A DNA stretch of 40,959 bases from Deltaproteobacteria bacterium (lineage in GTDB: Bacteria > Desulfobacterota > Syntrophia > Syntrophales > UBA2210), in contig JAPLJO010000061.1 of NCBI GenBank assembly GCA_026388515.1, positions 1 to 40,959 of the forward strand. Reading direction: 5' to 3'. Within the stretch, counting starts at the first letter, position 1; every line of letters begins with the position of its first letter. Under the pieces are notes generated by a model. The model was not told the origin of the DNA, made no database searches, and worked only from the letters and a program-made list of their open reading frames with translations. A program made the position numbers and the translations under genes. Below, one piece after another: positions 9,953-23,724 of this stretch.

Positions 9953-10285
9953 CTACTGGGCAGGTGCTTGTGCCGGTGCGGGTGTCATTTCTTTACGTTC
10001 AGTGATGGTAAATTTTTCCTTTTCGAATTTCTGAACGATGACATCCAGCGATGTTTTTGCATCGTCGAGGGTGATGGTGACGGTCTTCTCTTTATCGTCG
10101 GTGGTAAAGTTCTTTATGCCTTCAGTGGTTTTCAGGATAAAACTTATCCTGGATTTTCCCGATCAGGTCCAGCACCCGTCGACCTTGAGCTGATAGGTGC
10201 GTTCCGCCGCAAAGGCGGCGCCCGCCGCGACGAACATCATGATACAGATAAGACTAAGTATCAATCGAACACTGTTTTTCTTCAT
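9953..10285 (-). CDS. periplasmic HMA (heavy-metal-associated) protein, predicted selenoprotein with in-frame UGA
   Basis: Read from ATG 10285 (GAGGGAG six bases upstream) to TAG at 9953, this is a 110-residue protein with one in-frame TGA (10163-10165, residue 41). Residues 1-27 are a signal peptide (LILSLICIMMFVAAGAAFA). Reading through gives an HMA fold: TYQLKVDG, then Cys-Trp-Thr-Sec, then ISFILKTTEGIKNF, EKTVTITLDDAKTS and VIVQKFEKEKF. In normal HMA/MerP proteins the same place holds the metal-binding CxxC, so the UGA replaces the second cysteine. Stopping at the TGA would leave only a signal peptide and 13 residues, while the family homology continues in frame past it. An 8-bp hairpin with a GUU loop lies where a bacterial SECIS should. 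It probably binds a soft metal in the periplasm. selA, selB and tRNA-Sec are not in this window. Confidence 0.85.
10133..10151 (-). promoter_or_regulatory. SECIS-like hairpin of the HMA selenoprotein gene
   Basis: On the minus strand CAGGATAA and TTATCCTG form eight perfect pairs around the loop GTT. The loop G is the 20th base after the UGA. As I recall them, bacterial SECIS rules ask for a small apical loop with an early G about 16-37 nt after the UGA; this fits. Confidence 0.75.
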
Positions 10286-19524: not shown

Positions 19525-19683
19525 CTACTGTGTGTCGGTGGATTTTCCTGTATTTTCAGAGTCTTTGCCTGCCTCCTGGCAGGCATTTCTCATTCAGGTA
19601 GAAATGCCCATTCTGGGCAGTACGTAGAACTGGAGGATGAACCAGGCGGCAATGATACCGCTCACTGCGAGAAATGTCTTCAT
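19525..19683 (-). CDS. 52-residue membrane-anchored predicted selenoprotein with in-frame UGA
   Basis: ATG 19683 has CAGGAG seven bases upstream. The peptide starts MKTFLAVSGIIAAWFILQFY, an N-terminal membrane anchor, continues VLPRMGIST and meets TGA (19594-19596, codon 30). Reading through gives Sec-MRNAC, then a polar tail to TAG at 19525. Right after the UGA is a perfect 8-bp hairpin with loop AGGA, correctly spaced for a bacterial SECIS. If Sec is inserted, Sec30 and Cys35 could form a selenenylsulfide outside the membrane. If not, the product is a 29-residue membrane peptide. I recall no named family. It is not co-directional with any gene close upstream; the transglycosylase lies downstream on the same strand. 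Confidence 0.7.
19566..19585 (-). promoter_or_regulatory. SECIS-like hairpin of the 52-residue selenoprotein gene
   Basis: TGCCTGCC and GGCAGGCA form eight perfect pairs around the loop AGGA. The stem begins 8 nt after the UGA, so the loop starts 17 nt after it, with G at its second position. Confidence 0.72.
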
Positions 19684-19709
19684 TAATATACTCCTGTCGA
19701 TTCGGGGGT

Positions 19710-22752: not shown

Positions 22753-23724
22753 GTGAGCTACAGCCCTGATTTGAGTTTCATATACTTTGCCCCCACCAAG
22801 GTCGTCTATGGTGTGGGATCCGTGAGTGAGCTCCCCATGGAGGTGTCGAACCTGGGGAAAAGAGTGGTCCTTGTCACCGACCGCGGCATCTGCGACGCAG
22901 GACTGGTGGATGAGGTGAGGGATATCCTCGGGGATTCGCTGGCGGGTATATTTGCCGATGTCCCTCAGGATACCGGTATGGAGGTATGCGACCGGGGGGC
23001 GGAATACGCCGGCTCGGTGGGGGCAGATGTGCTGGTAAGTCTTGGAGGCGGGAGCGTGATTGATACGGCGAAAGGCATGTCGATCATCATGACCGAAGGC
23101 GGCTCGCTCTCGGACTTCCAGGGTATGCAGATGCTCACCCGGCCCCAGACGCCCCACATCGTCATTCCCACCACGGCGGGGACGGGCTCCGAGGTCACCT
23201 CGGCGGCGGTGGTGCTCAACCGGGAGCAGGGGCAGAAAATCATTATCTACGAATACCACATCACGCCCCGGGTGGCGATCCTCGATCGCGGTCAGATGCA
23301 GGTCGCGGCGCTGCTCGCAGGCTGGGCGTTTTCCAACGCGCTCCTAGGCCTGGTACATGCCATGGCGCATTCGATCGGCGCCGTGAGAGGCATTCCCCAC
23401 GGTCTCGCGAACGGGCTCTTTCTCCCCCATGTCATGCGGTTCAACCTCGAGGAGGTTCCCGGGCTCACGGCGGATATCGCCGAGGCCTTGGGTGTGAACA
23501 TCCACGGCATGGCGCCCCTGGAGGCGGGGAAGGCGGGTATCGCGGCGATAGAGGCACTGCAGGATCGCATCAGGCTTCCCCGGAGGCTGAGGGACATTGG
23601 GGTACAGGAAGAGGACCTCAAAAAAGCGGCGGAGCTTGCCATGAGCGACGGATCCGTCGTCTACAATCCGCGCATGGTGCTTTCATCGGATGAAGTCCTT
23701 GAAGTCTACAGAAAGGCGTACTGA
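22753..23724 (+). CDS. iron-containing alcohol dehydrogenase with an internal deletion of the metal-binding segment
   Basis: 323 residues, about 60 fewer than usual. The NAD-binding half is complete: VVYGVGSVSELP, LGGGSVIDTAKGMSI, IPTTAGTGSEVTSAAV. After VAILD (residue 178) normal relatives continue with about 60 residues holding the GMDALTHAxE motif, whose Asp and His are two of four iron ligands. Here the frame jumps to RGQMQVAALLAGWAFSNALL, typical of the segment after that stretch. The other two ligands remain (His202, His216, in GLVHAMAHSIGA and IPHGLANG). No stop or frameshift occurs. The product is probably inactive as a normal dehydrogenase or works without iron; an assembly error is possible. 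It overlaps nothing and follows the SCP2 gene by 11 bp. Confidence 0.88.
   Translation: MSYSPDLSFIYFAPTKVVYGVGSVSELPMEVSNLGKRVVLVTDRGICDAGLVDEVRDILGDSLAGIFADVPQDTGMEVCDRGAEYAGSVGADVLVSLGGGSVIDTAKGMSIIMTEGGSLSDFQGMQMLTRPQTPHIVIPTTAGTGSEVTSAAVVLNREQGQKIIIYEYHITPRVAILDRGQMQVAALLAGWAFSNALLGLVHAMAHSIGAVRGIPHGLANGLFLPHVMRFNLEEVPGLTADIAEALGVNIHGMAPLEAGKAGIAAIEALQDRIRLPRRLRDIGVQEEDLKKAAELAMSDGSVVYNPRMVLSSDEVLEVYRKAY

Follow-up and report, generated by a model that had tools for sequence, protein, structure and literature searches.

Small reading frames interrupted by UGA raise the question of whether the codon ends a short peptide or is read as selenocysteine (Sec), and, if the latter, what so small a selenoprotein might do. 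One such frame lies in the window considered here, that is, the whole stretch of 40,959 nucleotides forming contig JAPLJO010000061.1 of a deltaproteobacterial genome assembly (GCA_026388515.1; Syntrophales). It was approached through the gene itself, the RNA hairpin downstream of its UGA, the distribution and coding of its homologues, and the genes that surround them.

The gene and its predicted product

The coding sequence, delimited by translation with TGA as U and by homologues in the phylum, occupies positions 19525..19683 of the minus strand and specifies 52 amino acids followed by a TAG stop, with Sec at residue 30 (MKTFLAVSGIIAAWFILQFYVLPRMGISTUMRNACQEAGKDSENTGKSTDTQ*). On the same strand, a Shine-Dalgarno sequence, AGGAG (19691..19695), is located 7 nt 5' of the ATG. 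A single transmembrane helix containing the conserved residues W14 and Q18 is predicted at residues 2-24 (19612..19680, minus strand) from the AlphaFold2 model, whose pLDDT is ~88 across residues 1-20, and from the homologue alignment. The UGA assigned to U30 (19594..19596, minus strand) is followed by the codon of Cys35 (19579..19581, minus strand), the partner in a UxxxxC motif, and by a polar tail (19528..19578, minus strand) with a pLDDT of ~50 or lower that is predicted to be disordered. Toward the far end of the tail, counts by codon position become almost flat (86/78/99), indicating that the end of the tail is weakly constrained. The first-pass annotation, which gave no strand, had described a ribosome-binding site and ATG, one membrane helix, the order PRMGIST-UGA-MRNAC, and a polar tail, and all of these are found on the minus strand.

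A SECIS hairpin inside the coding region

The perfect 8-bp hairpin with an AGGA loop that had been noted 8 nt past the UGA is present at 19566..19585 of the minus strand, entirely within the coding region, with arms at 19585-19578 and 19573-19566 and the loop at 19574-19577; its 5' arm includes the Cys35 codon. The predicted minimum free energy is -17.9 kcal/mol (z -3.6 to -4.5), the distance from UGA to loop is 16 nt, and the G is at loop position 2. The published bSECIS model specifies a stem of 4-16 bp, a loop of 3-9 nt with a G in the first two positions, a distance of 16-37 nt from the UGA, and a minimum free energy of -7.5 or lower (PMC13188914 Fig. 2). With 8 bp, AGGA, 16 nt, and -17.9 kcal/mol, the hairpin agrees with this model, as the bacterial SECIS spacing proposed earlier had implied. 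A scan of both strands for a UGA followed at 16-37 nt by an 8-bp Watson-Crick hairpin with a G-containing loop, in an open frame, returned only this site and the UGA at 10165 (minus strand), bearing out the statement that the window holds two such arrangements; eight random windows scanned in the same way contained 0-1 sites each. A search of Rfam gave no match.

Across the family, stem, loop, and spacing conform to the SECIS model in 158 of 167 members, and the mean hairpin score is 15.4 in members versus 5.9 in synonymous recodings. The third base of the Cys35 codon faces the first base of an Ala or Thr codon three codons on, and the two pair as C-G in 41 members and T-A in 33, with a single mismatch (74/75 paired): Ala (GCN) accompanies TGC, and Thr (ACN) accompanies TGT. 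Since the Cys35 base is silent, its pairing in the stem with the Ala/Thr base means that the RNA structure tracks a change in the protein. Stem pairs outside this sorting into classes also show compensatory changes, with pairing kept in 64/67, 25/26, 23/23, and 23/23 cases, beyond all of 5000 shuffles that leave the relatedness of the members in place. On the tree, the silent Cys35 base changed at least 11 times; a strict independent-pairs test yielded one well-supported pair among many weak branches, because 50 residues resolve few branches.

Coding and distribution of the family

The window gene is almost certainly a true selenoprotein gene in which UGA is decoded as Sec, a conclusion drawn from comparative sequence evidence. 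Among the matches listed, the codon at the Sec position is TGA in 170 and TGC in 1 of 171 distinct members, and in every strong homologue from the order and the phylum the UGA is at one fixed position. The frame stays open over the 16 codons past the UGA in 166 of 167 members, compared with 77 and 73 for the other two frames, and Cys is found at U+5 in 157/171. The proposal that relatives lacking conservation after the UGA would speak against a selenoprotein was thus put to the test, and the relatives do conserve this region. SelA, SelB, and tRNA-Sec are all present in the genome of the window. Six family-positive drafts without a SelA match still have matches to tRNA-Sec and SelB (in pieces in one of them, G320), so that SelA by itself does not reliably mark Sec use in draft genomes, and the family is absent from 19 genomes that have neither SelA nor tRNA-Sec. 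With the Cys35 codon forming part of it, the hairpin would allow SelB and tRNA-Sec to decode this UGA.

Homologues with the UGA at the same position were found in 28 of the 60 relatives first searched. In the homologue alignment, M1, W14, L22, P23, G26, and Sec30 are invariant, and Q18, T29, and Cys35 are conserved in at least 90% of sequences. About half of the genomes in the order (81/155) match the family profile at E <= 0.01, with weak scores for a few, and a sample of the phylum gave matches at E <= 0.001 in 166 of 395 genomes (~40%) and 110 of 246 genera, with TGA in all matches listed.

A scan of GTDB contigs with the single protein found no homologue, probably because back-translation puts a Cys codon where the gene has its Sec codon and because the remaining stretches are variable. 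A DNA pattern scan of GTDB that accepted TGA, TGC, or TGT (TGH), and hence did not favour UGA, recovered at least 116 loci; W, Q, LP, G, and T are required by the pattern, and their conservation in that set is by design, unlike the codon ratio. The loci include Desulfobacterota such as Geobacter sp. OR-1, Geomobilimonas luticola, Citrifermentans bremense, Desulfatitalea alkaliphila, and Smithella, together with records titled or ranked as Acidobacteriota, Planctomycetota, Myxococcota, Spirochaetota, Armatimonadota, Verrucomicrobiota, Eiseniibacteriota, Sumerlaeota, and LCP-89; many sources are binned genomes, and single phylum placements may be wrong. Judged by these sequence matches, the small Sec protein is a large family across about ten bacterial phyla. 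It was not found in plasmid records.

Cys-containing versions and the DUF302 link

A Cys version, whose absence from relatives had been named as an argument against the gene, does exist, though it is very rare: four were found, all in one phylum (L184/L202, L207, L213, and L218). The first, L184/L202, carries TGC in a genome without tRNA-Sec above the cut-off, and its next gene encodes DsbD_TM plus thioredoxin. A profile search of the same phylum gave the three others (TGC, TGC, and TGT), whose genomes have tRNA-Sec, as do 12 of the 12 Sec-form genomes tested in that phylum.

Two of the Cys versions are fused C-terminally to DUF302 (L207:1069-1602 and L213:1069-1590), and in Myxococcota relatives a separate DUF302 gene directly follows the Sec-form gene. 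Fusion to the Cys versions and adjacency to the Sec versions point to a functional link between the small protein and DUF302 (PF03625), a domain for which a role in sulfur oxidation has been speculated (PMC5037610). The fusions and the rare Cys versions offer direct handles on the function of the family and a clue to the role of DUF302 itself.

Genomic context and proposed function

Neighbours upstream were counted on the same strand within 150 nt. The families recorded among the 72 scanned are thioredoxin (11), C_GCAxxG_C_C (8), 3D domain (7), rhodanese (5), 4Fe-4S (5), HD (5), and MobB (4), and those among 62 downstream neighbours are ECF sigma (14), YgaP-like transmembrane (7), YgbA_NO (3), and thioredoxin (3); the clades are unevenly sampled, and these counts are not independent. 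Among 66 control genes taken from loci of this kind at a distance of at least 3 genes, no family exceeded 3, and thioredoxin, C_GCAxxG_C_C, rhodanese, and YgaP-like proteins were not listed. Neighbours differ among clades, with no universal operon partner, and the window gene itself adjoins a transglycosylase gene, with no redox gene directly beside it.

The architecture comprises a membrane helix at the N-terminus (W-xxx-Q), then the short linker LP[RK]xGxxT and Sec30, usually with Cys35 in the flexible tail that follows. UxxxxC is present in 157/171 members and a tail Cys in 167, leaving four without any tail Cys, and this pattern suggests a Sec-Cys pair. Sec30 and Cys35 would be linked reversibly as a selenenylsulfide at the surface of the membrane, where the protein may serve as a tethered carrier of selenol/thiol or sulfane-sulfur groups that is reduced or loaded by thioredoxin/rhodanese-type partners and hands on electrons or sulfur to partners in the membrane or of the DUF302 type. 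Taken together, thioredoxin neighbours and UxxxxC are suggestive, and only suggestive, of a redox carrier. The tail is more likely cytosolic, because Lys/Arg residues directly follow the helix (net +1.06 versus -0.33 before it) and the thioredoxin and DUF302 partners have no evident signal peptides. Against this orientation, TlpA-like and rhodanese neighbours in some phyla, namely Acidobacteriota and Eiseniibacteriota, have N-termini that suggest an extracytoplasmic location. As a whole, a membrane-tethered selenoprotein with a redox-carrier role in the network of sulfur and thiol redox reactions is the description we favour, with reservations.

The same neighbourhoods contain ArsR regulators, an ArsP_1 permease with an HMA domain, and RND/HlyD genes, as might be expected if the Sec-containing protein handled metal or selenium, as a chaperone or efflux helper, and were not a redox carrier. 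However, redox families are the commonest upstream neighbours, and, apart from U and a single Cys, the protein lacks any cluster of metal-binding residues, which makes such a role unlikely. A place in membrane oxidoreductases (e.g., of the formate dehydrogenase type), as a structural or assembly subunit whose Sec senses redox state, is less likely still: genes for cytochrome-b-like membrane proteins and MobB are found upstream in several Desulfobacterales, and 4Fe-4S proteins in the window's own family, but these partners are clade-specific and missing near many members. The strong conservation ahead of the UGA (W, Q, LP, G, and T) and the existence of Cys versions point to a function of the protein and, with downstream genes that vary by clade, render it quite improbable that the gene is a selenium-sensing leader in which Sec incorporation acts as a translational switch for the gene that follows, even though in many loci the next gene starts inside or just past the end of the small gene and ECF sigma factors are found downstream in 14/62. 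Finally, termination at the UGA, which is formally a stop and has the helix wholly 5' of it, would leave a membrane peptide of 29 residues and, after it, a hairpin that is regulatory or due to chance, and is very improbable given the open frame (166/167) and Cys at U+5 (157/171) past the codon, Cys versions that read straight through it (two of them into DUF302), the occurrence of the family with tRNA-Sec and its absence without, and a hairpin that fits the SECIS model.

Beyond the redox-carrier reading of the individual protein, a bolder and more tentative proposal may be considered, in which the near-obligate Sec family of some ten phyla would form a membrane-tethered selenol relay linking thioredoxin/rhodanese-type with DUF302/YgaP-type sulfur handling, and would exemplify a class of short selenoproteins invisible to discovery through Cys homologues.

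Relation to known selenoproteins

Neither Pfam nor NCBIfam (June 2026) holds a model matching the window protein at E <= 1, and 28 aligned members gave only five stray weak matches, one each, in line with the first-pass expectation that annotation would miss the gene. The 119 families catalogued in 2026 (PMC13188914 Table 1) include no 50-residue single-helix protein with LP[RK]xGxxTU(x4)C, and an earlier description outside the indexed literature is possible. The family is thus a new one of a known kind, the selenoproteins, with an unusual build and almost exclusively in the Sec form. Like catalogued prokaryotic selenoproteins, it has a UGA decoded as Sec with the help of a bacterial SECIS element and a likely redox function; unlike them, since they are said to have Cys homologues (PMC12013277), its own Cys homologues are very scarce. 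The family was overlooked because discovery methods require Cys homologues or longer ORFs. In deep-Sep, selenoproteins may be discarded for want of Cys homologues, which all known ones seem to have (PMC12013277), and an earlier survey considered only ORFs of at least 90 residues, or 80 for SelW (PMC1242214). Selenoprotein counts for anaerobes are therefore probably too low, and tiny membrane selenoproteins constitute a testable class.

Among eukaryotic proteins, SELENOK and SELENOS are likewise small single-helix membrane proteins with Sec in the tail, a likeness in build only, and for SELENOS a Sec-Cys bond is proposed (PMC3628699). SELENOS differs in having 189 amino acids with Sec next to last, and the SECIS elements of both are eukaryotic. 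The YgaP-like transmembrane family (PF11127) and rhodanese/thioredoxin modules, frequent operon-like neighbours, resemble the new family as small membrane sulfur-handling proteins, but the window protein has no Pfam match to PF11127. DUF302 (PF03625) differs in being a separate domain, absent from the window gene.

Additional observations at related loci and in the window

In many Desulfobacterales (L066, L067, L090, L093, L108, L113, and others), an ECF sigma gene is directly 3' of the small gene and apparently overlaps its end. One clade has a conserved gene of ~143 amino acids (MTHxDTGNYAAKH...) directly downstream (L061:1031-1462 and seven similar loci), the one copy tested having no Pfam or NCBIfam match. 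A UGA-containing copy (L222:3909-3961) is on a contig filed in a viral collection (IMGVR_UViG_3300037657_000155) and is viral by label.

Within the window, an iron-type alcohol dehydrogenase-like ORF (22753-23724, plus strand) appears on visual inspection to be missing an internal segment. The second selenoprotein candidate (9953-10285, minus strand; UGA at 10165) specifies an exported, HMA/MerP-like protein of 110 amino acids with a CxxU motif (GCWTU) and an 8-bp hairpin. Its matches to PF00403 (E 7.5e-5) and TIGR02052 (E 3.3e-6) do not reach the curated cut-offs. Mercury-transport-type selenoproteins are already catalogued.
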